Assembly (NCBI GenBank): GCA_963682175.1
Contig: OY821784.1
Location: forward strand, 35,259,621-35,323,620
Direction: 5' to 3'
DNA length: 64,000 nt
Source of the DNA: Triglochin maritima
Lineage: Eukaryota; Streptophyta; Magnoliopsida; Alismatales; Juncaginaceae
The translations under genes and the position numbers were made by a program. A model generated the notes under the pieces. It was given only the letters and a program-made list of their open reading frames with translations, was not told the DNA's origin and made no database searches. Numbering within the stretch: the stretch's first letter is position 1; every line of letters begins with the position of its first letter. Shown one piece after another: positions 29,850 through 61,312 of this stretch.

Positions 29850-30529
29850 CGGTCGACCGGTTGGTGCAAACGGTCGACCGTTAGTATTGAGATTTCGGGT
29901 TCTGCCTCACATCGGTCAAACGATGCCCTTGGGGCGGTCGATTGATCGTGCACAGGAGGCAAGCCTGTTGGTTTTCGGTCGAACGGGGCCCCTTCGCCGT
30001 TCGACCGTGTGCACTGTCATAGGTCGGTCGGGGGAATTGACCATCCAAACGGTCGATCGCTCGCTGACTTCGTCCGACCGTGACTTAAGTTGGAATAGTG
30101 GTCGGTACGACCGAAGGTGGTTTCGGTCGACCGGACTTGATGAGGAGCGTGGGGGAATGCTCTGGACGAATTCGGTCGACCGAGAGTGCTCGGGCGCTCG
30201 ACCGGATTTGTGGTGAGAGTTGGGGGAATTCCCTGGTGGAATTCGGTCGACCGAGAGTGCTCGGGGGTTCGACCGGATTCGTTGTGGAGATCGTGGGATT
30301 TGTCCCCGGTGACTTTCGATCGAACGGGGCCCTTTTGCCGTTCGACCGATTGGTCGTTTTGTTCATTGAACCTGGGAGTTGACCATCTAAACGGTCGACC
30401 GTCCCTTGATTTGGGTTCGGCCGAACGAGTACTGCTGGTGGGAATCGGTCGACCGAGGGAGTGCTGGTCGAGGCGATTGCCCTGTGTTTTTGTGATTCGG
30501 TCGACCAGGACTTTTGGTTCGGTCGACCG
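29850..30529 (-). promoter_or_regulatory. Paired-palindrome array, LTR B1
   Basis: Exact CGGTCGACCG sites begin at 29850, 29871, 30124, 30173, 30244, 30392, 30446 and 30520, with many one- or two-base variants. Pairs start exactly 22 bp apart at 29976/29998, 30173/30195, 30244/30266, 30317/30339 and 30498/30520. Two pairs are 21 bp apart (29850/29871 and 30103/30124). Two pairs enclose a GGGGCCC spacer between CGAACG and CGTTCG half-sites. On the sense strand the array lies upstream of the unresolved LTR end, where core promoter sequence would be expected. Confidence 0.85.
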
Positions 30530-30637
30530 TTTGTGTCAAGTTTTGCACTATGGAGGTGCGGTTGTTGTGGTCGTCCGTGTGGGGTGAGTTGTGGTGCCGA
30601 GGTTCTTTCGACGAGTGTGCTAGGGTGCACGAGTGTT

Positions 30638-31125
30638 GCGGTGGTTGGGTGAAAAAGCTATGGAGCCCCGTAAATGTGTGAGAGGTTGGGATGGCTGAAA
30701 AAGGCCTAGAGCCCAGAATTGTGGCGTTGCGGTGGTTGGGTGAAAAAGCCGTGGAGCCCCGTAACTGTGCTAGAGCTGCGGTTGGTTGAAAGAGACCTGG
30801 AGCCCAGCTAGTCTGTACGGGGTTGGTTGAAAAAGACCTGGAGCTCCGTAGTGCATTCAGGTTGGCTGAAAAAGGCCTGGATCCTGAGCAGGGACCGCAT
30901 GTTAAGGGTTGGTTGAAAAAGACCTGGAGCCCTTGGACGTTTGGGTTGGTTGAAAAAGACCTGGAGCCCTTGGTCGTGTCGTGGTAGCTGCGGTTGGCTG
31001 AAAAAGGCCTGGAGCCCAGCTTGGCCACGATTGTGTGCTGCGGTGGTTGGGTGAAAAAACCCTGGAGCCCCGTGACGGTGGTGTGTGTTGTGGTTGGGTG
31101 AAAGAGCCCTGTAGCCCAGCCTGTT
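30638..31125 (-). repeat. Minisatellite, about 11 units of about 45 bp
   Basis: The core GGTTGGTTGAAAAAGACCTG followed by GAGCCC recurs near 30641, 30690, 30733, 30781, 30823, 30863, 30908, 30945, 30992, 31043 and 31091. The 213-codon minus-strand frame through it, with repeated GSRPFSAN peptides, is a product of the repeat. Confidence 0.9.
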
Positions 31126-31200
31126 TGTGATGCTTTCTTGTTAGTAGAATTGCATGCTAGGGTGTTTTCATGTCATGCATTGTAGAGTTTAGCATACGAG

Positions 31201-31216
31201 GTTTCCTTATGGAAAC
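31201..31216 (-). other. Conserved LTR hairpin, GTTTCC/GGAAAC
   Basis: GTTTCC-TTAT-GGAAAC lies next to GCATACGAG. On the sense strand this corresponds to the same block in the LTRs at 3699, 32255 and 61683. Confidence 0.6.
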
Positions 31217-31579
31217 TAAGACATTGTTGCACGTTTACTTTTCAGGCAGTGACCGACGATAGGTGGTGGTGACCGAGGAGAGGAGCACCGCTACCGGATC
31301 CAGCTTTCTCTCAGTTGAGGTCGGGTGATTACTGTATTCGTTGTATAGCCTTTTGATGTAATCACAACTTTTGAAACTCTGATGTACATATATATATGAT
31401 ATATGTTGGTGCACCTGTTTCCCTTATTTGAGTAATATCCTCTGTTGATTGTGTGTTATTTACAATTTTAAATTCTTCCGCTGTTTGAAGATGTTACAGT
31501 GGGTGATCGACTTCGGTGTCATATTTCGGCTGTAATATTTTGGATCGAGGGACAGAGGAGTGGTTAGTGTGCATTCTTC

Positions 31580-31819: not shown

Positions 31820-32254
31820 CCAGTTTACTTCTCATTTGTATTGTTTTTTCTCGATAACGTTTTGCAAAATTTGATGTTGGATGGTACGTTTTGCCTTTGA
31901 GATTGTCCCGAATTGGTCTTGTAAGCATTTATTTCATATGATGTAACATGTTGTTGTTTCTTTTGTAACATCCCGAGACAGCGGAAATTTAAAAATTCAT
32001 ACTCAAGACAATGGAACTCAATAATCAAAGACGAGACTGTTACTTCTCATAAAACAAATAGCGGTGCACCAAATTACATCAGAGTTTGTCAAAATGATAC
32101 ATGATTACAACAGAACAACAAAAGAAGATAAAACGTAATCATGTTGACCTCAGTGATCCGAGTAGAGGATCCGACTCCAAAATGCGCGCACCTGTCGATC
32201 ACCACCCTACTGGACCTACTGTGGTCCTGAAAAATATATAACAACAATGCCTGA

Positions 32255-32270
32255 GTTTCCAGAAGGAAAC
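32255..32270 (+). other. Conserved LTR hairpin, GTTTCC/GGAAAC
   Basis: GTTTCC-AGAA-GGAAAC is followed by CCCGTATGCC, matching the block at 3699-3726 with a paired stem change. Confidence 0.6.
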
Positions 32271-32631
32271 CCCGTATGCCAACTCACCTATATGCGTGCA
32301 TTACACAAATGAACCTATCATACTAGTAGGATGTCATGACATCAACAGAAAGGAAAACAGTTCCACCGAAGGGTAAAACAGGACATCAGTCCGACAGTCA
32401 ACATCGGGTCTCCCGAGGAGACCTACTGTAGGCACATGCAGTCTTACAGCACGCGACATCACACCCCCCACACGCGGCTACGCTACTCAAGGGTTCGGCA
32501 GGGAGCCTCTGTCACGCCTGCGGGCCGATAGAATACAGATCTGCAAATCTCTGTGGTCGGAGCCATGGGGACCAACGGGGCCGTCGCTCGGAAGGTATAA
32601 CAATACCATCTCGATAGGTGCCCAGTCGAGG

Positions 32632-32760
32632 AATCAACATAGCCGGAACAACCTCGGCCCAACAATCATCATCGCTGGCACAACCTCGGCGGCATCACCA
32701 GCACAACATCGGTGGTCCATCACAAACGTCCGGCACAACATCGGACAGATCCAGACCGAA
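32632..32760 (+). repeat. Degenerate minisatellite in LTR C
   Basis: Four to five units of about 25-32 bp share GGCACAACATCGG or GGCACAACCTCGG. The unit is unrelated to that of LTR B1 but lies at a comparable place in the LTR. Confidence 0.65.
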
Positions 32761-33143
32761 GTCTGCCAGGTCATCAGGCTCCACGAGCCGCAAACACCAA
32801 CCGCGCCGCTATAAAAGCAGGGCAACGACCTTCGTAGCCCGTAGGCCGGTAGTCACCTCACCCAACGCCAGTTGCGTGCCCGCACAACATCAAACATTGG
32901 GATCCGCGACCCCTCAGGCCTGTTATACTACAATGAGTCCAATCAATCCATCAACTTAGTCACGGTCCATACATGGAGGTGACGCGTCCCGAACACCCAC
33001 ACTTTTCCAAACGGCGGTCCCTGGGCAGGCACGCAAATCGCGCCCACCGTCACCTCTCGGCTCACGCACAAGGCGAGGACACGAGTTTCCGTGGACAAAG
33101 TTGGCATTCGAAAGGGAACCAGGAATTCTGTCCTGGGCCCAAA

Positions 33144-33621
33144 CGGTCGACCGGAAGAGGTGATTCGGTCGACCGGTTCCAGAAAGGAATCGGTCGACCG
33201 TACGCCTAACACGGTCTACCGCTACGCTCAAAACACAATCCCCAACGGTCGAACAAAGGTCTAAAACCGGTCGACCGAACGAGGTCAAAATCCAGAGTCT
33301 GGTCAACATCAAAATCAAACTATCGGTCGGCCGACTCAGGGGTCCCGGTCGACCGAAAACTAACAATACATCTTTTATATTATTTAAAACCATCGGTCGA
33401 CCGACTCAGGGGTCTCGGTCGACCGAAAACTTACAGGGTCAACCTATTATTCTACGTCATATAACGGTCGACCGAACGAAAACCAACGTCCGAACATCAT
33501 GCATAATAAACCAATAAACTTAAGTTCCGGTCGACCGAACACAAGGACCCGGTCGACCGAAACACAACAGACAGACAAAATACATGCATTCGGTCGACCG
33601 CCCGAAGGGCCCGGTCGACCG
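33144..33621 (+). promoter_or_regulatory. Paired-palindrome array, LTR C
   Basis: Twelve exact CGGTCGACCG sites begin at 33144, 33166, 33191, 33268, 33346, 33394, 33416, 33465, 33528, 33550, 33591 and 33612. Variants begin at 33212, 33246 and 33324. Start-to-start distances within pairs are 22 (33144/33166, 33246/33268, 33324/33346, 33394/33416, 33528/33550) or 21 (33191/33212, 33591/33612). Spacer bases differ between most pairs. This is the least decayed 22-bp array in the window. Confidence 0.92.
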
Positions 33622-34397
33622 TTGGTCGTCTTCAACCTCGCGCTAGCCAAGGTTTCTTCACCAAATCTCAATGTTGGAGAGGTCTCTGACCTCCTCCGAC
33701 CGACCAACACAACCCTCTCATGAGGGTTAACAATAAAACCACACTAGAGGGCGGCATACCTCAAAGAAACGACGAACCCGCCGGAGCCTCGCTCGCGCAC
33801 GTCGCCTCCAGAGATCACCTTGCGAGCTCGCCTCCTTGCACAACCTCCGCTAGATCCGCCTCCGCCTCCTCTGGTCGCCGTACAAGGAAAGGAATGAGAT
33901 GAGTGTAAGTGAGAGAGAGAGAGAGAACAAAACAATACATAAACCCAACCAACACCCTCTCTCCCACGCGCGCACAGTAACCGGCCTCCACTCCAGCACC
34001 CTACACCACCTATCTCCTCCTTCCCCATGCACACAACTGTGTTGCCTCCACTCCAACAGGTTTAACGTTGTAACATCTTTGCTTATTGATGTATTACTAT
34101 GTAATCATATTGGATTGTCTATTGAATTCTCTAATCCACTAATTTGCTCTTTACTAGTCTTATCACCATCACTATTTTTCATTTAGATTTGGATCCCGGA
34201 ATGTAACCGACTGAGAATGTGTCGTGGGCCCAAGAGATCGAATAAGACGACTTTCCGTGTAATGTCATGCACCCAGAACTGAGTTTTAGTGACAGTCTTT
34301 ACCAACATTAGACAAGCAACTTCTATCTGGCCACCTCTGATTATGGAGAGGGAAATGTTGGCGTTCAGGGGCAGAACTAGGATTTGAGTCTTGGGAG

Positions 34398-35352: not shown

Positions 35353-36022
35353 TGTGGGGATCGTAAGTGGCCCTCTAGTGATCGTAATTAACTAAAGTGC
35401 GGAATTAAAACTTAATTACGAAACTAACAACTAATCATGCAAGGGTTAGATGAGAGTTAGAGAACTTGCAAACCACGTTGTAGTCGACGCCCAATGTAAC
35501 GAGGTTCGGCACCCTCTCCGGGTCCTAGTCCTCACTCACAAGCCCCGCTCGTCCCTCGAGCCTCGCTTGTGGTTTCCACTATCCGATCTCCGTTACCGGG
35601 CCGAGATCAACGCCTTTACAAACAACGAGCCTCGCGAACACCCTCGCCTCGCCCGTGTCTCCTCTCACAACCCGAGAGGGAGCTTCCCCGAAGCTATTAC
35701 AACTCTTGTGATTTGGATGACGGAATGAATCACACTTCTTGCTAATGACACTCTAACTTTGAGCACACTTGGATTATGATATGGATCTAGGAATACAAGT
35801 GGTGAAGTTTTGTCTTGAGTGTGTAGGATTTGAGCTTTGAAGGTTTGGAAAAGATAGCACAAGGATAGTTGATGTTTGGAGAGTGTAGTGCTTGTTGTTG
35901 TGCTTCTAATGAGGTCCTTATATAGGCTTCAAAGCTCTTAGAGCCGTTGGGGAGTGGGTGAGAAAGTTGACCCATGAAATGTGATGATGTGACAAAAATT
36001 CGGGTAGAATTTGCACGCTCTT

Positions 36023-36480
36023 CGGTAGACCGTTAACCTAACGGATTACCGAAGATGGTCTTTTCGGTTTACCGAATTCTATTCGGTGAACCGCTCACTC
36101 AACTCCAGTAGCTCTCTAACTAGCAACCCTAATACTATTCGGTTTACCGAAACCTATTCGGTTAACCGTTCCAAACTGGACAATAAGATTGGTAGGGTTC
36201 TGTTAATGCTAGGTTCGGTTGACCGTCTATACTTCGGTATACCGAAGTTAGCGCAGGTTTTGCGCTGACAATGCGTGGGAAATTGTTTTACCAATAACGG
36301 TCAAGTTAAATAGCCGTTGGGCTCCTAAAGCAATATGATTCGGTTGACCGAATGAAGTTCGGTGTTCCGAATATGGATAAGTCAATTGGGCTTTAGGTCA
36401 AGATTTAAATACGACCGTTGGAGCAAAGTCCAAAACCGGTCCAGGCTAATTCGGTCTACCGAAGGTGGTTCGGTATACCG
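36023..36480 (-). promoter_or_regulatory. 19-bp paired-palindrome array, interrupted LTR A (part 1)
   Basis: CGGTNNACCG-type sites occur as pairs with starts exactly 19 bp apart: 36023/36042, 36065/36084, 36140/36159, 36216/36235, 36341/36360 and 36452/36471. The central two bases vary (AG, TT, GA, TA, TG, CT) while CGGT and ACCG halves are largely kept. Most sites extend to TTCGGTNNACCGAA. Confidence 0.92.
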
Positions 36481-37662
36481 AGGTGGTTATGAAGGGAATG
36501 TGTTCTAAAAGTTTTACTTTTAAATGTCAATTATTATGAATTGGATGAGAAATCATTTTGTTCCTTGCTTATGTTATTCGTCTTTTAGAAGTGTTAAGGA
36601 AGAGGCTCTTGGTCCTTAATCGTAGAGCTCTAAAAGATATTGGTTTACATAAAACAAAACATATTCGCAATCATGGTAATTAACATGAAACATTAATTAC
36701 CGAGTTAAGATTGTCGTGTTGGTCATAGATCATTGTAGCTCTACAAGTGAGTGACAACACGGGTACACAAAAGAGGAAAATATTACTTTTGTATACTAAA
36801 TAGACCTAATAAGTAAAATATTATAGAAATGTGTTTCTGTGTCATTAATATTTTACTGTGTCTTTTGGTCCTTTGATATGAGACTTATATCTAATCACTT
36901 AAGGAATACTTAATTAGATCAGTGTCTTGAACTATCGATCAGTGTAGTGTAAATGCATTGGTTGGTTAAGTACAACTTTTGTTGGAGAAGATAGTTAGTC
37001 AAAAGACTATCATTGCCCCTCTTAATTGAGTGATGATATTAGTGGGCCCCTTGATAAAGCAAAGTTATAATGTGCACAATGTGATTTGAGTTAAATCACA
37101 TATTTATAACTAGCTTAAAGAGATCAAGAAATGAATACTAATACAAAGATGACACAATACTACTTTGTGTGTATTCTTAATATCATGAGGCAAGGGACGG
37201 ACACAAGTGGTGCACTCCATCACTAATTGGATCGGGTTTTGGTTCGAGTGGAATTAAGACATCTAACTAATTGGGAGCTATAATGTGTAGCTAGATACTG
37301 CTTATAGCTTGTGATATTAAGCTCTTAATATCACTGCCAACTTAGTTTAGATCCTCCCATAGGTCACACCACAAAACTGGGAAACAAGAAATGGAGATTT
37401 TGAGTTCATAGGATGTGTCGGGTCTCATGTAGAAAATATGACACATGGGGTGAACAAGCAAAATCAAAATTATGTTGTGATTTATAACATAATTAGAATC
37501 TAAATTAAATTCATATGTGATGTAAATATTATGGGGTGTAATGTATTATCATTACATAGGATAATATGTTACATAAGTTGTGAATTTATTACTAATCCCG
37601 ACATGTCAAATTTTGTAGGGGTTAAACCGAAATTTGACAAGTCTGCATGCACTGTGCAAAAA

Positions 37663-37888
37663 CGGTCGAACGCTAGACCATAAACGGTCGACCGAATGTT
37701 TTGAGGTCGACCGTAATATTGCACGGTCGACCGGATGTGTGTACATCGTAACAGAGATTTCGTTTGCTCGTTTTCGGTCGACCGAATTTATCGGTCGGTC
37801 GACCGAATATTGTGATGAAATATTTTAATGTTGCGAACGGTCGACCGAGTGTCTAAACGGTCGACCGGACCTCGCACACGGTCGACCG
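37663..37888 (+). promoter_or_regulatory. Palindrome array in the Copia 5' LTR
   Basis: Exact CGGTCGACCG sites start at 37685, 37724, 37775, 37796, 37838, 37858 and 37879. Variants start at 37663 and 37704. Neighbour distances are 22, 19, 20, 51, 21, 42, 20 and 21 bp, so most are near one or two multiples of 21. The array ends about 180 bp upstream of the TATA box. Confidence 0.92.
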
Positions 37889-38067
37889 GTCAGACGGTTT
37901 TATGCAGAATTAATTTAAGAATTAATTAGATCATGCATGAAATTGGTCCATAATTGATTTAATTCGTGGCTAAGATTATTTATTAATAAATAATGGATGG
38001 TTAGATGGAATTTTGCATGGAATCATGGGCAAGAGGTTGCACATGAATATGTAATTTGGAGAGAACC

Positions 38068-38075
38068 TATAAATA
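38068..38075 (+). promoter_or_regulatory. TATA box of the Copia 5' LTR
   Basis: TATAAATA in the context AACCTATAAATACAAGG. The same sequence is at 43090-43097 in the 3' LTR. Confidence 0.7.
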
Positions 38076-38539
38076 CAAGGTTATCTCATTACCTCCTTAA
38101 TTAATTCATTATTTTTCTTATGCAAAATCTTTCTCCATAATTCTCCACGAAATTACAGTAATTCTTAAGTTTAGTTTTAGTTCTTCAGAGGTCATCTTCT
38201 AAAGGGAACAAAAGAGGGGTTAGTAATTGGATTCTAAACCCTATTGGAGATCGAGAGGCTAGCTCGTCTCTCTCCAATCTTGTTTAGAGTTTGGTGAAAT
38301 CTCGGAGGCATCCGGCGCAGCAATAATCATCCCCAACGTCTCCGAATATTCAAGAAGTTTTAGAGAACTTCTAGGTATGAATTTCGGAGCCCCATGTTTG
38401 TTTTAATAAAAGTTTTAAAACTAGTTATTGAAACAAACCGATGCATGCATGAAACAAATTACAGAAAATTGAAAATTGATCCTTATTATACATAAAATTC
38501 CGAAAATGTATATGTATAATTAAACATGAAATCCTACAG

Positions 38540-38551
38540 TGGTATCAGAGC
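38540..38551 (+). other. Primer-binding site, initiator Met tRNA
   Basis: TGGTATCAGAGC begins one base after the LTR end. It is the usual plant Copia primer-binding site and fixes the LTR boundary and orientation. Confidence 0.95.
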
Positions 38552-40045
38552 TTAGGGTTCAATTTTCTCATGATTTATGCCTGTAAACAAATCTAGTTTA
38601 CCATGTAGGGTTTAAACAATTCGTTTTACCGGTTTTTCGGTCTTTAAATGTTTTGTTGAAATAATTCTTTATAATAATTCGTTTTAAATGTTTTGAATGT
38701 TTAAAAAATGACATGTAATTACTAGAATTATGATTTAGACATAAGTCTAACTTGCAATAATTTCGTTTTAAGTATAAACGATTATTTTGTAAGAGAATCA
38801 ACAAAACCGAAAAACTGCGATTCATCTTTCCATTGGAAATTGGATGGACAACGGTTCATAATTAATTTGTGAACTATGGATGCATGAAAAATGTTTTTAA
38901 TGGATTTCAAAATGTTTTTCAAAGAATTGTTTGGGATTCTAGATGCTTGATAAACTAGGTTGGATAGTTTATAGCGATATTGCGTGCATGGATGCTCGAG
39001 TTGTTTTGCAGGAATTATGAGTTTGTATGTTCCAAATCAGCAGCTATGAATGTTTATAATTGTTATAATACAGGGGCTTATGTATGTAAAAGCCAAATTC
39101 TCTATTTCCATCTTTTAGATAAATTGCATATGCATATGAGAGGTTTTTACATAGGACTTGCACTAGTCGGTTTTTTATCAAATGTGAGGGGCATGTTTAT
39201 TTTCTGTAAAATCTACATCTCCGGTGCAAGAGGAAGTCGCCGCTGTAGCGCATCGATCGAGGATCGAGGATCGGGGATCAAGGATCAAGGATCGAAGGGA
39301 ACATATAAACTCACACGATGTGGATTGTGTGAATGTTTAATTTCTGTTTTTTAATTTCTGCTATGCATGTGATGAATGTGGTGAATGTTAGGATGTGTAT
39401 GAATATTAATATGCATGATAACCTAAAATTCTACATCACATGTTAAATTGTCCAACAAAAATTAAGAATAAATTTCCTTCTTATTTTCATCCACTAGCAG
39501 CCATTGATCGAGGGATACTCTGCTCGCCCTTAGCGGGAGATAACTCCCTCCATCTTTGGGAATAGTGGGAGATATAAAGGTTGTCTGTTGTTGTGCCACA
39601 ATTAAATATATGAGGTGTCTTTCACCCTAGTGAACCCCAAGTATGTTTAGTTGTGAATACAATGGATAAACGTATCTCGTATCAAATGAAAATAAGTTTT
39701 CTTAACATTACCTAGAGCCCTCGTTCGGTTTTGGGAAAAAGTTTTTCTTAGGAGGATAGGTCGTATTCCCTCATAATTAAAACGACAAGAGTCACAAGAG
39801 TTTGAAGATGCTAAATGTTGCTAAAATTCAAAAAAGTTGTGATTAGAAAATGTTTTCTTACCTTGATATTGTAATGTATTCGATAGCCCTTAGCTAGTCT
39901 ATATTACAATTGATGGGATCTTGGATTGTTGCATTTATGGGCAAGATTTTTATTTGCAACATTTGCATTTATATTTGATATATGTATGCATGTGTATTAA
40001 AACATAAAATTGACATTAAAATCCTGTATAATTTATTTTGTAGAA
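38552..40045 (+). other. Untranslated Copia leader, about 1.5 kb
   Basis: No coding sequence was recognised between the primer-binding site and gag. A short repeat of GATCGAGGATC-like words lies at about 39252-39297. Confidence 0.6.
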
Positions 40046-41017
40046 ATGTCTAATATCCAACCTATTATGCGATCTATGATCGAAAAGAATCCTTTGCAAA
40101 ATGATGGCTCAAACTTCATGAAATGGCAACTCAATCTTAATATCGTGTTGAGGTTTGAAAAACTATCTCATATTTTGGACGGTGAAATCCCAAAATTGAA
40201 TGAGATGACAACCGATAATGAGAAAGAGGCAATAGCCAAGTGAGAAGACCAAGAGAACCAAGTTCACGGTCTAAAGTTGGCATCCATGGGTGACTCGCTT
40301 CAAGCGAAATACTTGGATTCAAAACCCAAGAAGACCATGGAAGCTTTAACAAAGATGTTCATGGATAGTGCCCGGAAGGAGCGCTATAAGACCACCATCG
40401 CACTCACAAGGTGCCATATGGCGGAGGGAACATCGGTGTCCATGCATTTTCTCACGATGCAAGGATACCTTGAGAAATTGTCGAAGTTCTCTTCTCCAAT
40501 GCCCAATGACATTGCCGAAGATCTGATTCTTTGCTCTCTAGCCCCATCCTTCAAGGACTTTGTGATGCACTATCATGTGCGTGAAAAAGGGGTGAGTCTT
40601 GAGGAGCTTCACAACGCTCTCAAAACGGCATAAGTTGACATGGGCAAGGGTCGGGACAATCACGTCCTAGCCGTCCATGAGAATAGGAAAAAGATCAACA
40701 AAGGTAAAGGCAAATTTACCAAAGATACGTCAATCGAGAGCAAGGGAGTAGGAGGTGCTCAAAGGAGTGCCTCAAGGGGGAAATCTTTGAAATCTCCAAC
40801 TCCCAACACGGAGTGCTTTCACTGCGGTGAAAAGGAACACATCCGACCTAATTGCCCCAAATACAAGGAAAACCTTGAAAATGGGATGATTGAACGTAGG
40901 CGCCCGAGAAACGCCATAGATATGTTTGTTATTGAGATAAATTTAATCACCTCTGTCCTTGATTTGGTAATTGTTACCAGATCTTATGCTCACATAATTT
41001 TGATGTGCGGTTGTTGA
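40046..41017 (+). pseudogene. Copia gag, two in-frame stops
   Basis: The frame starts MSNIQPIMRSMIEKNPL and shows the gag block NFMKWQLNLNIVLRFEKL. A TGA at 40241 and a TAA at 40631 interrupt one continuous frame. Downstream it reads VSMHFLTMQGYLEKLSKF and SLEELHNALKTA. The zinc knuckle C-FH-C-GEKE-H-IRPN-C is intact near residue 260. Gag forms the virus-like particle that packages element RNA. The stops make this copy non-functional. Confidence 0.88.
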
Positions 41018-42054
41018 AGGATAGGAAGGAACTCGTGAAGAACGAGATGATATTGAAGATTGGAAATAGTACAAGCATCGCTGCGATTGTACAAAATTTT
41101 ATGGAACTTCAATAGTCTAGTGATTTAAATTTATGCTTTGAAGAATGTTTGTTATGTACCTTCGATTAGCAAGAACTATTCTGTATCATGTTTTGGACAT
41201 GGATAACTTAATATATATTTTTAATTATTGCTTGTCTATATCGAAGAATGGAATTCTCTATGCAAATACATTCGCATAGAATGATTTCTATTTGCTTGAA
41301 ATAAATAATAAACAAACTCAAACAAACAATAACAAAAGGAACTAAGATAACTCACGTAGATGATACAATCTTGTAGCACTATCGGATTGATCAAATAAAT
41401 GACCAAGAGACCTTTCAAGAAGAAAGGAACGAAAATGAATAACTAATTGGATATGATACATTCTAATGTATGTGGTCCGATAAGTACAAGTGCAAGGGAC
41501 GTTTAAGGTACTTCATTTTGTTCACGGACAACTATAGTCATTATGGTTATATTTGTCTAATGGGAAGCAAAAGTGAATTCTTTGACAAGTTCAAGGAATT
41601 CGAGGATGAAGTAGTGAACCGACTCAACAAGAATATCGAGTCTCTATGAAAGGTTCGTAGGGGTGAGTGCTTAGGATACCTAATTTGACTTATTCCTAAA
41701 GTAGGAACATGATATTGCTCGACATGGTTCGATCAATAAGTCAATCTAAATTGCCTATTTACTTTTGGAATTATGCACTACAAATAATGACAAACACACT
41801 AAATAATGTTCCATCCAAATCCGTGGAGAAAATGTCTTGTGAGCTATGGAGTTGAAAGACACCTAAGCTCGATTTTCTCAAGATTTGGGGTTGTGAGGTA
41901 TACATCAAGAAATTGATGTCGACCAAGCTTAAACCAAAAGCGGATAAGTGCTTCTTTATAGGTTGTCCTCGTGTGACAAGAGGATACTACTTTTGGTATA
42001 TCACCTCCAATCGAAAGATTGTAGAGAGAGATATGGTTTTTCTGGAATTTCTGG
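41018..42054 (+). pseudogene. Copia pol fragments (pre-integrase and integrase)
   Basis: Readable pieces, in different frames with several stops, include KNEMILKIGNSTSIAAI (pre-integrase region) and RYFILFTDNYSHYGYICLM (integrase core). They also include FFDKFKEFEDEVVNRLNKNI and, before the 3' LTR, YYFWYITSNRKI-like sequence across 41985-42010. Reverse transcriptase and RNase H are missing. The break to the LTR is at AAAGCAAAG, a word also present inside the 5' LTR. Confidence 0.8.
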
Positions 42055-43560
42055 AAAGCAAAGTTATAATGTGCACAATGTGATTTGAGTTAAATCACAT
42101 ATTTATAACTAGCTTAAAGAGATCAAGAAATGAATACTAATACAAAGATGACACAATACTACTTTGTGAGTATTCTTAATATCATGAGGCAAGGGACGGA
42201 CACAAGTGGTGCACTCCATCACTAATTGGATCGGGTTTTGGTTCGAGTGGAATTAAGACATCTAACTAATTGGGAGTTATAATGTGTAGCTAGATACCGC
42301 TTATAGCTTGTGATATTAAGCTCTTAATATCACTGCCAACTTAGTTTAGATCCTCCCATAGGTCACACCACAAAACTGGGAAACAAGAAATGGGGATTTT
42401 GAGTTCATAGGATGTGTCGGGTCTCATGTAGAAAATATGACACATGGGGTGAACAAGCAAAATCAAAATTATGTTGTGATTTATAACATAATTAGAATCT
42501 AAATTAAATTCATATGTGATGTAAATATTATGGGGTGTAATGTATTATCATTACATAGGATAATATGTTACATAAGTTGTGAATTTATTACTAATCCCGA
42601 CATGTCAAATTTTGTAGGGGTTAAACCGAAATTTGACAAGTCTGCATGCACTGTGCAAAACGGTCGAACGCTAGACCATAAACGGTCGACCGAATGTTTC
42701 GAGGTCGACCGCAATATTGCACGGTCGACCGGATGTGTGTACATCGTAACAGGGATTTCGTCTGTTCGTTTTCGGTCGACCGAATTTATCGGTCGGTCGA
42801 CCGAATATTGTGATGAAATATTTTAATGTTGCGAACGGTCGACCAAGTGTCTAAACGGTCGACCAAAACCAGGTCTAAACGGTCGACCAGACCTCGCACG
42901 CGGTCGACCGGTCAGACGGTTTTATGCAGAATTAATTTAAGAATTAATTAGATCATGCATGGAATTGGTCCATAATTGATTTAATTCGTGGCTAAGATTA
43001 TTTATTAATAAATAATGGATGGTTAGATGGAATTTTGCATGGAATCATGGGCAAGAGGTTGCACATGAATATGTAATTTGGAGAGAACCTATAAATACAA
43101 GGTTATCTCATTACCTCCTTAATTAATTCATTATTTTTCTTATGCAAAATCTTTCTCCATAATTCTCCACGAAATTACAGTAATTCTTAAGTTTAGTTTT
43201 AGTTCTTCAGAGGTCATCTTCTAAAGGGAACTAAAGAGGGGTTAGTAATTGGATTCTAAATCCTATTGGAGATCGAGAGGCTAGCTCGTCTCTCTTCAAT
43301 CTTGTTTAGAGTTTGGTGAAATCTCGGAGGCATCCGGCGCAGCAATAAGCATCCCCAACGTCTCCGAATCTTCAAGAAGTTTTAGAGAACTTCTAGGTAT
43401 GAATTTCGGAGCCCCATGTTTGTTTTAATAAAAGTTTTAAAACTAGTTATTGAAACAAACCGATGCATGCATGAAACAAATTATAGAAAATTGAAAATTG
43501 ATCCTTATTATACATAAAATTCCGAAAATATATATGTATAATTAAACATGAAATCCTACA
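42055..43560 (+). repeat. Truncated 3' LTR of the Copia element
   Basis: It corresponds to 37056-38538 of the 5' LTR and ends with the same ATCCTACA. The first 566 bp are lost. It carries one extra palindrome unit compared with the 5' LTR. Confidence 0.9.
42661..42910 (+). promoter_or_regulatory. Palindrome array in the Copia 3' LTR
   Basis: It is collinear with the array at 37663-37888 but has an additional unit near 42856-42880. Three sites (42836, 42856 and 42880) read CGGTCGACCA, a G-to-A change at the terminal CpG. Confidence 0.88.
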
Positions 43561-43593
43561 GGTTATTTCAGGGAACACGTAAAGGATTCTACA

Positions 43594-43665
43594 CGGTTGA
43601 CCGCAAGGTGTTCGGTGGACCGAACTCTACATGTTTCGGTTTACCGAGAGGGGTTCGGTTAACCC
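43594..43665 (-). promoter_or_regulatory. 19-bp paired-palindrome array, interrupted LTR A (part 2)
   Basis: Pairs begin at 43594/43613 and 43637/43656, again exactly 19 bp apart. This is the continuation of the array cut by the Copia insertion. Confidence 0.9.
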
Positions 43666-43969
43666 AGGGATACGGGACAGAATCCTAATGTGCTCAAGTT
43701 TACATTAATCCTTAGGACTCAAATTATACTAAATTACATATTGGTCCAAAGCTTGATTACATGTCTTGAGTCTTTATCTTCTTGTCCAAAGCTCCTTAGC
43801 TTGATTCTTCATCAACCTATTAAGAATATCGCAAATACACGAATATATATGCAATGCATGTATTCATGTTTGCTTACTTTGATTGTCTAGGTTGATTGAT
43901 TAAATATAGATTAAGATTAGATTACTTAATCATCAAAACTAAATAAAGATTAAGGCTAAAAAGCCAACA

Positions 43970-53511: not shown

Positions 53512-53689
53512 ATAGTTTCACATTACTCAAGGCAAAAAATATATTTGGTTGAGTAACCATCTAGTGATAGGAGCAAAAGGTGGGAAGAGTAGGAAGCATA
53601 AGAGCTAAATAGTGTAGGATGGAAGTTGAAGAAAGACTCTACGAGTTTGATGAGATGGCATAATCGGTCGTGTTGTGGTACGTCCTCTT

Positions 53690-53880
53690 AAGAGTAACCA
53701 TCTGGCAATATGGAGGTTAAGGAGGAGTTTGTCTATTTAGCTACTAAGTAAGAGTAACCACCTAGCAATATGGGGGTTAAGGAGGAGTTTGTCTATTTAG
53801 CTACTATTAAGTAAGAGTAACCACCTAGCAATATGGGGGTTAAGGAGGAGTTTGTATATTTAGCTACTATCGTGTACTTA
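53690..53880. repeat. Three tandem units of about 62-64 bp
   Basis: Units begin near 53690, 53750 and 53812. Each contains AAGAGTAACCACCTAGCAAT, GGGGTTAAGGAGGAGTTTGT and TATTTAGCTACTA. Confidence 0.9.
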
Positions 53881-54619: not shown

Positions 54620-55678
54620 GGGAACTACTAAACGTCGCCCCAAAACTACTTAAATCGCCCCTTGAAATTACCAAATTGCCCTTAAGAAACTTAAAAAACA
54701 AATTTTTTAGGGGGAGGCGTCTGCCGGAGACGCCTCCCCATAGGAGGGAGGCGTCTGCCGGAGACGCCTCCCCATAGGGGGGAGGCGGCTGACACAGACG
54801 CCCGACCCTTTTTTTTGGGGTTTTTTTTAATATTAATAGAAAATAGGGTTTACATTATCAAATTTAATATGTTTGTACATTATATAGTGTGAATTGATTA
54901 TCAAAAAAATTAAAAGGTAGAATACTCATCATAAAAAAATAACAGTACGACAGAGAAACAAACACAAATACGAAAACAAACGTACGACAGATAAACAAAT
55001 ACAAGTACGAATAGTAAGTGTACGACAGAAACGAGAATACAATAATAAGAGTAAGATACTAATACTCTAACTACTTATCAACCTAATCATGGTCGGGGAT
55101 GCCCAACTGAGAATGTCACGCCTGTATCAAGTGACCATCATCTACACAAGCAGCTCTGCTGTACTCGTCTGACATCTCGTCCTTCTTCGCCAGGATCGGC
55201 TACACAACCCAAATCATCTTACCCATCCACTGTACATAACAACCCCATTAGTATACACTAAACATCACCCAAAAATTACTTAAATCGCCCCTGAAAATTA
55301 CCATTTTAACCAAATTAAAAAAAAAATAGGGGGAGGCGTCTAAGGCAGACGCCCCTCCATAGGGAGGAGGCGTCTGTCGTAGACGCCTCCCCATAGGGGG
55401 GAGGCGTCTCCGACAGACGCCTCCCCCCTATGGAGGGGCGTCTGCCTTAGACGCCCAGGTAAGTGGTTTTTTTTTTTTGAAAAAATATACATCGGGGGAA
55501 CCGCTGGTTGCTTTTCTGGTCTCCGAGACATTCGAGATATTGTGCATGAGGTATAGGAAGAGAAAACGGTGGTAAAAAAGTGAAATTGTGACTTATATAA
55601 GCCTAAATAAGGTCAAGGGCAAAAAGGTAATTTGTTAGGGCGATTTAAGTAATTTTGGGGCGATGAATAGCAATTCAG
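54620..55678. mobile_element. Non-autonomous DNA element with 8-bp TSD, GGAGGCGTCT family, copy 2
   Basis: The left end is GGGAACTACTAAACGTCGCC. The right end, read inward, is CTGAATTGCTATTCATCGCC. TTTTTTTA duplications lie at 54612-54619 and 55679-55686. Two blocks (54712-54800 and 55328-55456) hold repeated palindromes of GGAGGCGTCT and AGACGCCTCC. The GC-richer middle (about 55085-55240) may be captured sequence; no protein family was recognised. It is inverted relative to the copy at 6423. Confidence 0.8.
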
Positions 55679-56058
55679 TTTTTTTATTCATTTCAAATAC
55701 GAATACTTTGTTGGCTTTTTGGCCTTAATCTATAATTTGATGATTTAATCAACCTAATCTTAATTGTAATCAATGTAGAGTAACATACATTTTGCATATA
55801 TATTGCTATGTGTTAACTTCTACAGGTGATCAAAACTCAAAGAAGAAAGGAAATCAAGTCAAGACATGTAATTTGCATTTCTTTTGAGTCTTAGGAACTT
55901 TGTGTAATTGAGCATACTTGAGCTAAAACATACTCAAACACACACTAGGTCCATTATAGAAGTCACACACAAAATCACATATAATTTGGACTTCAATAGA
56001 TCACCCAAACTTAGATCGGAAAACACTAAACACTTAACCTGAACTGACTGCCCACATT

Positions 56059-56507
56059 TGATCGACCGAAACATACCGTTCGGTCGACCGAGTGATCAAT
56101 TACCCAATTGGTGTTTTACTGCCCAGTTTCGGTCGATCGTCCAGACATTTTCGGTCGATCGAGTTAACATATTTATCCGACCGTTAGATTTGCCGTATTA
56201 TACCCAACGGTCGTATTCGTATTATTTCCATATACCCCAAAATACATTTAGTGTATCAGTCGACCGAGGACTTGTTCGGTCGACCGAACGTATGATAACT
56301 CGGCAAACCCAAAGTGCATGTCGATTTTTGGTCGATCGTATTCCTTGTTTCGGTCGACCGAATTTGATCTTGTTTGTCAATCCCGTAGAGCCTGTTATGA
56401 ATCGGTCGACCGAACCCTATTCGACATTCGACCGATCACTTAAGTGAACTTAAGTCAAAGCCAAAATTGACCAACCGGTTGACCGACATACCCGATTTGG
56501 TCGATTG
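56059..56507 (+). promoter_or_regulatory. 22-bp paired-palindrome array, LTR A (+ copy)
   Basis: Pairs of CGGTCGACCG or close variants start exactly 22 bp apart at 56059/56081, 56130/56152, 56329/56351, 56403/56425 and 56476/56498. One pair is 20 bp apart (56257/56277). The array ends about 100 bp upstream of the TATA box. Confidence 0.92.
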
Positions 56508-56603
56508 ATTTTTTTCTAAATTGGGTCCTGCAGATTTCTGTTTTGTGTATCTTACACAACCTTTACCCAATTCATCCCCAACGACTATAATTGTCTTGGA
56601 GCT

Positions 56604-56612
56604 TATAAATAG
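56604..56612 (+). promoter_or_regulatory. TATA box of LTR A (+ copy)
   Basis: TATAAATAG in GAGCTTATAAATAGAGTTG. It sets the sense orientation of the family. Confidence 0.65.
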
Positions 56613-57225
56613 AGTTGTAAAACACATTTTAACATAACTCTCCCACTACTATTTGTCCCCTACATTAGAGAGAAAACTCCACACACTCAAAAGCTCAAAA
56701 TCTTCCACACTTAGTAATCAATTCCATATTCTACACAAGTGTGCTTAAGATTAGAGAGTGTTGTTCCACTCCATTATTGTCAAAGAAGCAATGGTCTTGG
56801 TGAAAGCCCAAGACAAGAGTTAGACTTTGGTGAGAGCCTGAAGTGATCCCTCTCGAATTGTGAGAGGAGGAGCCAAACTCGGTAAGGGTTGTTCGCGAGC
56901 TTGAAGATTGTAAAGGTGTTCTCTCCCGACCCGGAATGGGGAGTGGTTAGTGAAGTCGTGAGCGGAGTTTGCAAGAGACGACTAGGACCCAGGTGGGGTG
57001 CCGAACCTCTATAAAAATCCCCTGATTGCTTGTGGTTTGCTTGCCTTTCCTTACTTGCTTGTTTATTTGTTTAAATTCCGCTGCATATACTTGATCGATT
57101 AAACAAGTAGGTAATTAGGGATAAAAGTTATTAGAATTAGAGACCCTCACGATCCTACATACTTCTGGCATTCTTATAATGGTATAGGTTTTGAATCCAA
57201 TTTTTCTCTTGATTAATGAGCATTC

Positions 57226-58654
57226 TGTTAGGATCTATGACCCTTTAATCGCTAGATAAATGCGGAATTTAAAATACTAATCGAAGGATTAAGAGATAAG
57301 ACATGCAAACCACAAAATCGACGACACCCGAGTTTAGAGAGGTTCGGCACCCACACCCATGTCCTAGTCATCTTCGTAAGCCTCACTCGATCCCCCAAGC
57401 CTCGCTTACAGTTCCACTAACTGATCACCGTTCCGGGCCGAGATCAACGTCGTTTATAACTCCGAGCCTCGCGAACAACCTTGCCTCGCTCGTGTCTCCT
57501 CTCACAACCCGAGAGGGAGCTTCCTCGAAGCTTTACAACTCTTTGGTGATTCTTGAATAGGGAAGTTGAATCACAATCTAACACTATATACTTGAGCATA
57601 CTTGGATATTGATATAGAATTGGATAAGGAAGTGGTGAAGTTTAAGCTTGAGTGTTGAAGAATAAGCATTGAAGGTTTGAGAATTGAGAGCACAAAGATA
57701 GTTGATGAATAAAGGGTGTTAAAGGTTGGTTTGTGTCTCTAGAATGATGTTTATATAGGCTTCAAAGCTTAGAGATCCGTTGGAGACTTGGTGGGGAAAT
57801 AGACCAATGAGAATGCAAGATGTGAGTTAAGCTCGGGATTTCGAGGCATATTCGGTCGACCGATAGAAAAACGGTAGTCCGAAGAATTGGTCTGAATTAA
57901 ACATTTGGTTGACCGATTATATATCGGATCACCGTTCCATTGGTTGGTCTCTGATCTACTCAAGTTTGGTTGACCGTGTACACTTCGGTAGACCAAAGTT
58001 AGTGCGGGTTTTGCGCTGACAGTTATAACTCAAATAGTTGTTGGGTACAACGGTCAAGTGCCACATGTCAATAGCCATTGTGAACCTAAAGCCAAGAAGG
58101 ACTCGGTTGACCGATAGGTATTTGGTCGTCCGAAGTGGGACAAGTCAATTGGGCTCTAGGGACTCGATTCGAATACGACCGTTGGAGCAAAGTCCAAAAC
58201 TGATCCAGGGCTATTCGGTTGACCGAATGTGGTTCAGTTTTCCGTTGAGGCATTTCTAGAGAACACCTAAGTTTTACTAGTTGGAAGTATTCGGGTATCC
58301 GAAAGGTGTTCGGTAGACCGAACAAGACATGATTCGGTTGACCGAAGGTTGTTCGGTTTACCGATGAGGGACGTGACAGAATCCTAGTACTCAAGTTTAC
58401 ATAAAACCTTATGGACTCAATACATACAAAATTACTTGTCATGGTCCAAAGCTTTGATTACAAGTCTTGATGTCTTTGTCCCAATGCTCATTTTGTTGAT
58501 TATCTTGATCAACCTATTAAGATGATTGCAAGTATACAAATATGTATGCAATGCATGTAATCATGTTTGCTCACTTTGATTGATTATGTTAATTGATTAA
58601 GATTAGTTTAATTAATCATCAAAATTAATATAGATTAAGACCAAAAAACCAACA
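57226..58654 (-). mobile_element. Solo LTR family A, antisense orientation
   Basis: It runs TGTTAGGATC to AAACCAACA. Perfect CATTC duplications lie at 57221-57225 and 58655-58659. The minus-strand TATA-like GCCTATATAA is at about 57751-57760. It is collinear with the interrupted copy at 35353-43969 and inverted relative to its neighbour at 55709. Confidence 0.92.
57853..58362 (-). promoter_or_regulatory. 19-bp paired-palindrome array, LTR A (- copy)
   Basis: Pairs start exactly 19 bp apart at 57853/57872, 57906/57925, 57967/57986, 58104/58123, 58216/58235, 58292/58311 and 58334/58353. Some sites are decayed by one or two bases, yet the spacing is unchanged. On the sense strand the array lies about 100 bp upstream of the TATA-like sequence. 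Confidence 0.92.
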
Positions 58655-58659
58655 CATTC

Positions 58660-60059
58660 TACTAAGAAGGTGAATTAGTCGTCGACGATAACTTCAATTA
58701 TTTTATGTTTCTCTCTCGTATCAACATAGTTGATTGCCACTTTTATAATAATCAAATCCTCGTTGTTTCCCAAACACTAGGATTTGATTGTTATGTATTC
58801 CTGGATTTGTAACATTTGTAAGCATCTGCTTTTATTTTACCGGGTTTATATTCTTCAAGAATAACCTCTTCAGGTTGTGTAACGAGTGACTAATTTTTTG
58901 TTTTTATTTTCACAAATAATATATGTTCTAGTCCACGCTTTGGTGTTGATTCAGCTCAAATATATTTTATCATGTCAAGATCTCTACTTTATATTATGCA
59001 TTTTATGTCTAGTAATACAAGACTTTGTTACTCATTTGTGATCAATAAATACGTATGACAATTACTGGCTAGGTATTGCAAGTTTATGATTTTATGGACT
59101 TCAGGTTCAATATAATACATTTTTCTTGACATTAGCTTCTCGTTTTCTCCCCATAATGGCAAAAATATGTGCCTATATATATAATTGTTGGACTGGACAA
59201 TATAATACATCACCCTTTAAGGGCTTTAAATATTTTAATATGATCACGAATATGAATCCTGCTGAAAAATCCAATTTAATTTGAGGCCACTGAATTTGGA
59301 GGCGGTACTTAAAAAACATACAAGTATATAAAATAAGAGAGTATTTAAATCGCAGATGGAAAACATTTCATTCAACAACATACAAGTATATAAAATAAGA
59401 AAGTATTTATAATAAGATCTTAGTCTAATAATAAAAATTTATATTGGTAGATATGATACTAAAATGATGCATCTTGAGAGATATTTTATCAATAGAGGGA
59501 ATCATTTTGTTGTGAAAATTAGTCGACAAACATGACCTCATTTTTTTTAACTAGTACATGTCAATACAGGATCACCGTCGATACCCATAATGAATACAAA
59601 TGATAACTTCATTTACACACTTCTGGGCTGGTATCTGTAGTTAACTCGTTTGAGAGTCATTTAAATCTCTTATTACTTCATATTTGCATTATTTATTTAT
59701 TTCACTACGTATGTTTTTTTTCTTTCACAATGCTTTGTATTGTGTGCTTTGGGCACATGATCCAAAATATGAGGGCAAATATTGTGATTTTGTAATAACT
59801 TATCTTTATGACTTTCAATTACAAGTAATGCATAACACAAGTAATCATATCGCACAAAAAATAGTCTGTAGATACCCACTTAGATGGTCATATGAAATTT
59901 CAACAACATTCGTCATCATATCTAATCATCATTGACCTAATCAGTCATACCATATATTATTATAATCAATATTCATTTGATTCACCAGTGCAAGTATTTT
60001 GACCAAATCACTACGTGTGCAATGACACATTGTTCAAAAGTCAAGTAATTTTCTCAATA
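58660..60059. other. AT-rich intergenic stretch
   Basis: No gene was seen. A short duplication of AACATACAAGTATATAAAAT, followed by AAGARAGTATTT, lies at about 59315-59415. Confidence 0.5.
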
Positions 60060-60659
60060 AAAATGATGCATGGACGCGGGCGTCAAGGACGCTGCCCAAT
60101 TGGTTGTTGATGTGGTTGTGTTGATGTGGTAGTTTCAATATTTTTTATTATCGAGTGGGTGTGGATGCGGGTTCATGTGCGTGACAAGCTATGCGACAGT
60201 TCAATTCCAAATACATATTTAAATCCTTTTTTTGTTTCCTCATCCCTCTACGGCTCTACCCTCTCCCTAAACTTTCGTATTCTGTCTTCATTATCCCTGC
60301 GTGGGCAGAGTCTCCAGTGCAGCTCCGTCCCTTAGAGAATACGAGCGTCCCCTCGACGACGACAACAAAGTCCGGAGGGTGTCTCCGGGAGTCTCGCTTG
60401 TAGATGGTGATGAATGCGGGAGTTGGTGAGCTTGGAGATGGCGATGGGTTCGAAGGGGTTTTGGATAGTGTTGTGGATGTGAGTGGTTTTGTGTTGTGAA
60501 TGAAAGTGGAATGTGTTGAATGGTCATATTTTGGAGTGTCCAAGTTTGATTCTAAATTATTTTATAAGTACTTGAAATTTCTAACTTTGTATTTTGGAGT
60601 GTCATTTTCTTTTGTTCGAAAGACTCGTAGGAGTTGTGCAACAGAGCTCAGCACTAAAA

Positions 60660-61270
60660 TGGTTGACCATTTCTGTGGTTTGGTCGACCAGTTGTAGTGT
60701 ATTTTGGGCGTTCATATCTCGCACCGGTCCAACGATACCCTTGGGTGGTCGACCGAATATGCATTTTTAGCGAGAATATGGAGGCTCTGAGAGTTTCCTG
60801 TCAAACGGGTCCCCTTTGTTATTCGATCGAATGCTCTGTAGTGTGTCGGTTGGGGGCATTGACCATCTAAATGGTCGATCGCCCTGTTAACCAGTCTGAC
60901 CGAATGCACTGTTTTAAGTCGGTTGGGGTTGTAGACCACAAAAAAGGTCAACCGCCCTGAGACCTCATTCAACCGACGACATAAAATAACTTAAAGTTTT
61001 TTTGACTTTTTTGTCGTTCGGTCAACCGATATGTTTTGCTTCAAGTCTGAATTTACTACCTTTTTACGGTCGACCGTCACTTTTGTTGTTGTTCGACCAT
61101 CGCTTTTGTTGTTGTTCGACCGTTCGTGTTTTTGTGCGTGAAGTGGATTTTACTGTTTCTTTTCGGTCGAACGGGTCCCCCTTGCCGTTCGACCGGTTGA
61201 TGGGTTTTTTGGTTGGTTCAGTCCTCTGGATGGGGATTCGGTCGACCAGAGTGGTGGTTTTGTCCGACCG
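60660..61270 (-). promoter_or_regulatory. Decayed paired-palindrome array, LTR B2
   Basis: Sites are mostly one to three bases from CGGTCGACCG. Pairs at exactly 22 bp remain at 61164/61186 (enclosing GGGTCCCC) and 61239/61261. Others are 21 (60660/60681) or 23 (61067/61090, 61090/61113). On the sense strand the array lies upstream of the TATA box at 60561-60566. Confidence 0.8.
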
Positions 61271-61312
61271 TTTCTGCTCAGTTTGGTGTTTTTGTGGTGT
61301 TGTGGAATCAAC

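Follow-up and report, generated by a model that had tools for sequence, protein, structure and literature searches.

RM-box palindromes in closely spaced pairs in three LTR groups of Triglochin maritima

The RM boxes of Sireviruses were described by Bousios et al. (2010), who found no common binder and called the boxes Sirevirus-specific (PMC2829016). In the grapevine (Vitis) element the consensus is exactly CGGTCGACCG, with 12 copies, 10 of them in the 3′ LTR. The palindrome considered here has thus been known before, as the RM box, with which it shares the palindromic form, the CGG–CCG core, the many LTR copies, the CpG richness and the position upstream of a TATA box. A word search of that paper's text brought up nothing on how far apart the boxes lie, a distance that was measured here (PMC2829016). 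The accessible parts of PMC5311732 and PMC10760457 describe maize Sirevirus palindromes that are similar in forming rapidly evolving CGG…CCG-core clusters in the LTR regulatory region, but differ in consensus (CACCGGAC...GTCCGGTG). A further likeness is found in ONSEN/COPIA78, where, according to the accessible sections of PMC5059998, the LTR promoter captures host factor (HSFA2) sites made of small inverted modules and strengthened via proto-element duplication, activity being dependent on motif number and distance; motif and spacing differ from those of the RM arrays. The sequence-only reading of the locus had instead named VANDAL elements and their VANC proteins as the closest parallel. These are alike in the dense short motif in non-coding regions and its growth by tandem repeats, whereas the VANC21 motif (YAGTATTAY) has a single orientation, its binder is element-encoded and its carrier is a DNA transposon (accessible parts of PMC5735166, whose main text, to the same extent, mentions neither palindromes nor spacing). 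Given the identical published consensus, the Sirevirus RM boxes are closer (PMC2829016).

In the 64-kb window, i.e. the whole stretch of DNA analysed, the palindrome CGGTNNACCG occurs in 59 exact copies, as compared to 0–2 per first-order Markov shuffle (n = 10). All 59 lie inside LTRs, in agreement with the earlier observation of dozens of copies confined to LTRs. With ≤1 mismatch allowed, 99 sites are present in the window, 93 of which fall within LTRs by their final borders; the remaining 6 represent no excess, because shuffles of the whole window yield 9–18 such sites. The eight LTR copies form three groups (Table 1), namely the nested copia element B, the solo LTRs F2a–F2c and the ~2-kb LTRs G1–G3. 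Seven of these copies carry 8–16 RM sites each (≤1 mismatch); the B 3′ LTR carries 10. When the sites were masked, no cross-match between the G, F2 and B groups was obtained at E 0.01. No internal region was found beside the F2 or G LTRs in the 64-kb window. With its start, TGTAACATCCC, family G appears similar to LTRs of the Ty3 Tekay type; the ends of the F2 LTRs are presumably copia-like.

Table 1. Positions of the LTRs, RM arrays and parts of element B in the window.
Feature	Position	Strand	Remarks
G1, family G LTR	29221..31498	- (tentative sense)	+ strand end GTTACA; lower border approximate; aligned with G2/G3
G1 RM array	29850-30530		15 sites with ≤1 mismatch
G2, solo LTR	31964..34075	+ (tentative sense)	TGTAACATCCC...GTTGTAACA; 5-bp target duplication TCTTT
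G2 main RM array	33144-33621		
F2a solo LTR, 3′ part	35353..36489	-	target duplication ACTAC; interrupted by element B
F2a 3′-part RM array	36023-36480		19-bp pairs; TATA-like box downstream
Element B, Ty1/copia	36490..43560	+	decayed; nested in F2a; target duplication GGTTA
B 5′ LTR	36490..38538	+	2,049 bp; TATAAAT at offset 1579
B 5′ LTR RM array	37663-37888		9 sites (≤1 mismatch), 19-22 bp apart
B internal region	38539-42052		
B primer-binding site	38540..38551	+	TGGTATCAGAGC; one base past CA of LTR
B gag fragment	40244..40630	+	Retrotran_gag_2 PF14223, E 5e-8
B zinc-knuckle fragment	40634-41014		follows gag; slightly under Pfam cut-off
B 3′ LTR	42053..43560	+	without first ~0.55 kb
B 3′ LTR RM array	42661-42910		one 24-bp RM unit more than 5′ LTR
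F2a solo LTR, 5′ part	43566..43969	-	RM sites 43594-43665
F2b solo LTR	55709..57159	+	target duplication TACTT; TATAAAT at offset 896
F2b RM array	56081-56486		20- and 22-bp modules with CG centres
F2c solo LTR	57226..58654	-	target duplication CATTC; TATA-like box at LTR offset 898
F2c RM array	57853-58363		19-bp pairs
G3, family G LTR	60070..61979	- (tentative sense)	lower border approximate; RM sites mainly 60725-61248

The sites agree with the Sirevirus definition of RM boxes, which asks for palindromes with a CGG–CCG core in a minimum of eight copies per element. In contrast to the Sirevirus-only distribution proposed for these boxes (PMC2829016), they are found here in the copia element B and in the G LTRs. 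The Sirevirus junction of 5′ LTR and PBS reads CA-ATTGG-TATCAGAGC, or has G replacing the first T, and B departs from it with ...CCTACA-GTGG-TATCAGAGC, which is one base short and shows 3 mismatches in an ungapped comparison with the 16-mer. The 9-bp TATCAGAGC itself is present in B, the LTR end being set by the GGTTA target duplication. Sireviruses have several copies of the PPT AGGGGGAG, 10 bp ahead of the 3′ LTR. It is absent from both strands of 36490-43560, where B lacks the beginning of its 3′ LTR together with the bases that preceded it. In the last 60 bases of the B 5′ LTR and F2a–F2c, inspection by eye revealed no clear C-rich block at ~21 bp from the end, where Sireviruses have their integrase signal. 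A search with B gag gave 7 matches, the best 96% identical across 76% of the query, and we assume that this gag resembles that of non-Sirevirus copia elements. Integrase-like remnants were noticed as well, likewise judged by eye. The pair spacing, the two dialects described below and the presence of RM boxes in an element that deviates from the Sirevirus PBS junction are apparently new, and the use of RM sites by unrelated LTR families looks new as well.

The distances between neighbouring sites are far from random. Gaps of 19–22 bp account for 38 of 82, while 5,000 random placements gave a mean of 8.4 and a maximum of 20, and gaps of 10–18 bp are lacking altogether (0/82, null mean 23.7). Leaving out the B 3′ LTR as a duplicate, 32/73 gaps measure 19–22 bp versus 7.1 expected; LTR by LTR, the excess reaches P<0.05 in 5/7 (F2b 0.09, G3 0.06). 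Among all pairs of sites with ≤2 mismatches, 18 are 22 bp and 17 are 19 bp apart, close to the 17 and 15 counted earlier, which had been read as two rigid values. This latter part does not hold: with ≤1 mismatch, the counts are 14 at 19 bp, 5 at 20 bp, 8 at 21 bp and 11 at 22 bp, and therefore the spacing is better described as a 19–22 bp range with family preferences. Of the pairs quoted previously, 33394/33416 and 36065/36084 consist of exact sites, each site of 56130/56152 and 61164/61186 carries one mismatch, and 30244/30266 combines an exact site with one that has two mismatches. The 19-bp pair given as 58334/58353 exists, albeit one base further on (58335/58354). Moreover, from one pair to the next the distance is somewhat less variable than had been proposed, since no gap of 26–33 bp was observed and 21/36 of the 26–120-bp gaps measure 41–57 bp (≤1 mismatch, B 3′ LTR excluded). 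A 10.5-bp phasing of the longer gaps is weak and suggestive only (P 0.02 with ≤1 mismatch, 0.57 for exact sites).

The preferences follow the LTR groups. Modules with 19-bp spacing are found in F2a/F2c in 12 of 13 cases, and varied central dinucleotides are tolerated there. Those of 20–22 bp sit in G, B and F2b, and in 17/19 of them both sites are centred on CG. Two dialects can thus be distinguished, TTCGGTNNACCGAA with 19 bp and CGGTCGACCG with 20–22 bp (Fisher 5e-6). As spacing and centre differ by family, the idea of one rigid module common to all families is not supported. In addition, 19 and 22 bp are ~100 degrees of helix rotation apart, which weakens the case for a single rigid cooperative complex.

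Comparison of related LTRs shows what is retained within a module. Between F2a and F2c the site arms are 91–98% identical (80/88 and 47/48), values that are inflated by picking sites that are exact in one copy, as compared to 66–67% for the flanks (217/329 and 164/244; arms vs flanks, Fisher 1e-6) and 50–55% for the central bases (12/22 and 6/12). Fixed-length spacers hold 0.5–0.6 bits only and the arms 1.7–1.9 bits, the latter partly by construction because the motif was used to choose the sites. The earlier impression that intervening bases vary while the sites persist is borne out by these figures. For G1 and G2 the corresponding identities are 48/64 and 74/96 in the arms and 145/349 and 155/354 in the flanks, and the CG centre is likewise kept (11/16 and 22/24). 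In the two LTRs of B, arms (54/56 and 40/40) are no better kept than flanks (187/193 and 191/198), as is expected after insertion; this comparison lends no support to the reading favoured below. Module spacing was preserved free of gaps in 7/8 F2a and 4/4 F2c modules when these two LTRs were aligned (control windows ~0.5; P 0.02–0.09). Between F2a and F2b both sites recur at the same spacing in 0/8 and 0/2 modules, and the G copies retain it only in part (1–2/4, 1–3/6 and 1/2, varying with aligner setting).

The arrays of F2 and B precede a TATA-like box, which follows the last site after 98 (F2a), 118 (F2b), 95 (F2c) and 179 bp (B). In the F2 LTRs this box is located at 970/1541, 896/1451 and 898/1429 bp (offset/LTR length; F2a, F2b and F2c), with further TATA-like matches at offset 121 in F2a, 89 and 1302 in F2b, and 732 in F2c. 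The first RM sites are at offsets 305, 373 and 292 and the last at 862, 768 and 793, i.e. 53–56% of the LTR length. F2 thereby conforms to the Sirevirus layout, in which RM sites start at 200–400 bp and occupy the upper half before a mid-LTR TATA, apart from last sites slightly past half. In B, the cluster (offsets 1174–1390 of 2049) is upstream of the TATA at 1579 but in the lower LTR half, and so deviates from this layout.

We favour a reading of the arrays as cis-regulatory boxes, i.e. tandem sites for a host dimeric transcription factor that act as upstream activator of the LTR promoter, with a rough probability of 0.58. Each palindrome would most likely be a docking site of such a host-encoded dimer, and two dimers about two helical turns apart might bind cooperatively; in the F2 and B layout, the array would then activate the TATA promoter from upstream. 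The units may arise through short tandem duplication, after which arms and distance would be held by selection as the spacers drift. Arm preservation and non-random spacing fit the dimeric binding protein that had been proposed from the sequence, minus the rigid module for all families. Since G, F2 and B do not cross-match, a common trans-acting factor is the simpler reading, and it is hence probably host-encoded. We know of no binding protein for the RM site. Neither of the core patterns of DREB (DRE, RCCGAC) and WRKY (W-box, TTGACY) accounts for all arrays, the two occurring in 0/19 and 6/19 exact F2a/c, 1/5 and 1/5 F2b, 1/23 and 1/23 G, and 1/7 and 0/7 B sites, respectively. Spacing rule and arm conservation together make a sharp two-site probe to fish out the binder.

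Alternatively, adjacent palindromes could pair as RNA or cruciform hairpins, so that structured LTR transcripts feed or evade small-RNA silencing. RM arrays do fold far better than dinucleotide shuffles (z -7.5 for F2b, -10.3 for G2, -6.7 for B and -8.0 for the larger F2a part), but every palindrome array folds well and these scores are not discriminating. In two G1 modules and one G3 module, the inner arms have changed so as to match each other, CGGTCGAACGG...CCGTTCGACCG, apart from one mismatch in one of the three. Across all 36 pairs, 46/72 central positions are complementary versus 34.9 expected, and 0/5,000 shuffles reach 46; we conjecture that this excess stems from CG centres co-occurring within the same families. 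No covariation of paired centres is seen in the 15 F2a/c pairs (6/30 complementary vs 4.9 expected, P 0.34), and hairpins neither require loops of 9–12 nt nor forbid gaps of 10–18 bp. A hairpin/small-RNA role has been proposed for the maize Sirevirus palindromes. According to the accessible part of PMC5311732, these are hotspots to which small RNAs map. For the present arrays such a role appears less likely than protein binding.

A neutral origin, in which a unit of ~20–24 bp or ~70 bp with one or two palindromes was spread by slippage and the spacing is the unit length, would account for the 24-bp RM unit by which the B 3′ LTR exceeds the 5′ LTR, and for a 71-bp tandem unit in G1 (2.3 copies). 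The four G2 22-bp spacers are alike (0.44 vs 0.24), and two G2 modules with near-identical spacers point to local duplication, as with the G1 unit. The eight full F2a spacers are slightly alike as well (0.38 vs 0.28, P 0.002), owing to their first and last two bases, but inner spacers resemble shuffled ones (0.24 vs 0.24 in F2a, 0.23 vs 0.23 in F2c). Arms are conserved between F2a and F2c, and the same spacing range is shared by three mutually dissimilar groups; we consider a purely neutral relic unlikely. Least probable are targets of an element-encoded anti-silencing protein, VANC-like as in VANDAL transposons. Dense non-coding arrays and CpG-rich RM regions (o/e 1.2–2.2 in the F2 and B arrays) would suit protection from methylation, but the site is common to unrelated groups, and the target duplications mark F2a–c and G2 as solo LTRs. 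A Pfam scan of ten ORFs (four in B), out of 181 ORFs of at least 60 aa from 28000 on, returned gag and zinc knuckle (B) only and no VANC-like gene.

Extending the host-factor reading, a dimeric factor with a spacing code (19 and 20–22 bp dialects) might have been captured independently by unrelated LTR lineages of one plant genome, copia and perhaps Ty3/gypsy, the Sirevirus RM box being one case of convergent hijacking; this is put forward tentatively. If RM sites serve several unrelated families, a large part of a plant's retrotransposon load may be under the control of a single host factor. The exact 22-bp module was also scanned against viral contigs and is present in 2 of them, which was counted neither for nor against any reading. 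Finally, a glycosyltransferase exon lies nearby, with matches in many flowering plants among the matches listed (120 of 735).

The plant DNA of the window (39% GC) contains retrotransposon remains with LTRs that sort into three groups: the ~2-kb LTRs of group G (G1–G3), the solo LTRs of group F2 (F2a–F2c), and those of element B, a nested copia element with a primer-binding site and a copia gag fragment. The 5' and 3' LTRs of the latter (B5 and B3) share ~97% identity across 1,508 bp. LTR borders were set from TG...CA ends and 5-bp target duplications; a clean duplication was sought at the borders of G1 and G3, and none was found. LTR comparison showed F2b to be akin to F2a and F2c. The named matches to the GlcAT14-like gene, among the 120 listed of 735, are flowering plants. 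An ORF at 46291–46986 encodes a NAM-associated C-terminal domain (PF14303, E 1e-7) and is possibly transposon-derived.

LTRs, nested element and gene in the window (window coordinates)
Feature	Position	Target duplication	Remarks
G1	up to 31498 (-)		group G; low end approximate; LTR sense tentative
G2	31964-34075	TCTTT	group G; LTR sense tentative
G3	up to 61979 (-)		group G; low end approximate; LTR sense tentative
F2a	35353-36489 + 43566-43969	ACTAC	group F2
F2b	55709-57159	TACTT	group F2
F2c	57226-58654	CATTC	group F2
Element B	36490-43560	GGTTA	nested in F2a
Core-2/I-branching (beta-glucuronosyltransferase GlcAT14-like) gene, exons	49852-52928		Branch domain

The short palindrome CGGTNNACCG, here called the RM site, occurs 59 times in exact form, as compared to 0–2 times per shuffle in ten Markov shuffles. 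All 59 copies lie inside LTRs, as do 93 of the 99 sites with ≤1 mismatch (final borders). For sites with ≤1 mismatch in eight LTRs and gaps <200 bp, 38 of 82 neighbour gaps measured 19–22 bp (null mean 8.4, maximum 20 in 5,000 placements) and none measured 10–18 bp (null mean 23.7, minimum 12), the null being random site placement with a minimum gap of 10. Tested one by one (B 3' LTR excluded as a duplicate), G1, G2, F2a, B and F2c exceeded the null at 19–22 bp (P 0.025 to <0.001), while F2b (P 0.09) and G3 (P 0.06) fell short of 0.05. The whole finding comes from a single 64-kb window that offers seven LTR copies, some of them related to one another, and one duplicate.

Modules, i.e. pairs of neighbouring sites, follow two dialects. 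At least one non-CG centre (middle dinucleotide) is found in 12 of the 13 19-bp modules, all 12 in F2a or F2c; the remaining one is in B. Conversely, both centres are CG in 17 of the 19 modules with 20–22 bp spacing (G, B, F2b). The association of centre type and spacing (Fisher 5e-6, B 3' LTR left out) is overstated, as modules of one family are not independent. Sites in F2a/c are flanked by TT...AA (0.71 and 0.84 after symmetrising). With F2b related to F2a and F2c, the switch of both centre and spacing occurred within a single LTR family.

Comparison of LTR copies separated the arms (outer bases of the palindrome) from flanks, comprising flanking and spacer bases within 30 bp. With F2a as reference, 11 of 13 exact sites align gap-free to F2c, with identity in 80/88 arm, 12/22 centre and 217/329 flank positions; the 6/6 exact F2c sites gave 47/48, 6/12 and 164/244. 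The difference between arms and flanks is significant at 1e-6, that between centre and flanks is not; arm identity is somewhat inflated by picking sites as exact in one copy, but alignment alone is not its cause because the centre of the same sites is poorly kept. The same direction, albeit weaker, was seen for F2a/F2b (arms 44/72 and 29/40 vs. flanks 169/366 and 119/264), F2b/F2c (24/32 and 30/40 vs. 132/262 and 106/240), G1/G2 (48/64 and 74/96 vs. 145/349 and 155/354) and G1/G3 (37/48 and 12/16 vs. 127/274 and 39/79). In group G the CG centre is preserved as well as the arms. No difference was found for B5/B3 (54/56 and 40/40 vs. 187/193 and 191/198). Whole-module spacing between F2a and F2c was retained in 7/8 and 4/4 cases vs. 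about half of control windows (P 0.02–0.09), the aligner being biased in favour of retention. Between F2a and F2b, 0/8 and 0/2 modules had both sites at equal spacing, and between G copies spacing was kept in 1–2/4, 1–3/6 and 1/2; the pairs compared were those of F2a with F2b and F2c and of G1 with G2 and G3.

A TATA-like box follows the last RM site at 98 (F2a), 118 (F2b), 95 (F2c) and 179 bp (B), with further TATA-like matches present in F2a–c. CpG o/e is 1.2–2.2 in the arrays vs. 0.5–0.9 in the remaining LTR for F2 and B, 1.38 vs. 0.80 for G1 and 1.15 vs. 0.92 for G2; G3 shows no difference (0.97 vs. 0.93). The high CpG of the arrays is largely due to CpGs within the sites.

The sites are dyad-symmetric, and their arms are kept while the spacers and, in F2a/c, the centre are not. 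They observe a minimum distance and favour a step near two helical turns, and the arrays lie upstream of TATA. Together, these features point to occupation of the modules by paired dimers of a putative DNA-binding protein. Such a factor is likelier to be host-encoded than element-encoded, as the site is common to unrelated LTR groups. A possible alternative is that the arrays act as hairpins or in a small-RNA pathway: they fold far better than shuffles, and three G modules carry matched inner-arm changes. Against this alternative, the two centres within a pair show no covariation in F2a/c (6/30 vs. 4.9 expected). Covariation over all 36 pairs (46/72 vs. 34.9 expected) is probably due to CG-centred families having CG in both sites.

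Passages of the 2010 Sirevirus paper (Bousios et al., PMC2829016) describe palindromic RM boxes, 8–32 in each element, which are called Sirevirus-specific, have CGG-CCG as their core and precede the TATA box of the LTR; in Table 3 of that paper, the consensus for a Vitis element is CGGTCGACCG. Neither the box nor its general location is thus new. The same passages state that a single common binding factor could not be named, and a word search of that paper returned nothing about inter-box distances. Such spacing appeared in no report among the titles and abstract starts of the matches listed, a scope with most subscription papers outside it. Each of two viral contigs (L001:3859-3890 and L002:8529-8560) contains two exact copies of CGGTCGACCG at a spacing of 22 bp. 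Element B misses the published Sirevirus primer-binding-site junction by one base, has no obvious C-rich LTR end and, unlike the Sirevirus layout, has the array placed in the lower LTR half. The arrangement of RM sites in F2 agrees with the Sirevirus layout, but a C-rich LTR end is absent. From these results it is well supported that the arrays work like Sirevirus RM boxes, whereas the identity of element B as a Sirevirus is doubtful.

The B 3' LTR array is 24 bp longer than its 5' counterpart, corresponding to one extra unit, and the tandem-repeat scan identified a 71-bp unit in G1; RM units are therefore gained, or lost, through tandem duplication. Growth by this route is likewise described, in passages of the respective papers, for VANC targets (PMC5735166) and the ONSEN proto-element (PMC5059998). 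In F2a and in F2c, inner spacers resemble one another no more closely than shuffled spacers do; G2 spacers, by contrast, do so. The G1 LTR also holds an imperfect tandem array at 30635–31120 (GGTTGGGTGAAAAAGCCCTGGAGCCC, ~46/91-bp unit), and the scan gave no repeat at the corresponding place in the G2 or G3 LTRs. Beyond the LTRs studied, a 63-bp minisatellite lies at 53689–53870 (2.9 copies, 94% matches), and two blocks of tandem 34-bp units on GGGGAGGCGTCT...AGACGCCTCCCC (54708–54802 and 55326–55455), themselves palindromic, form a second palindrome array.
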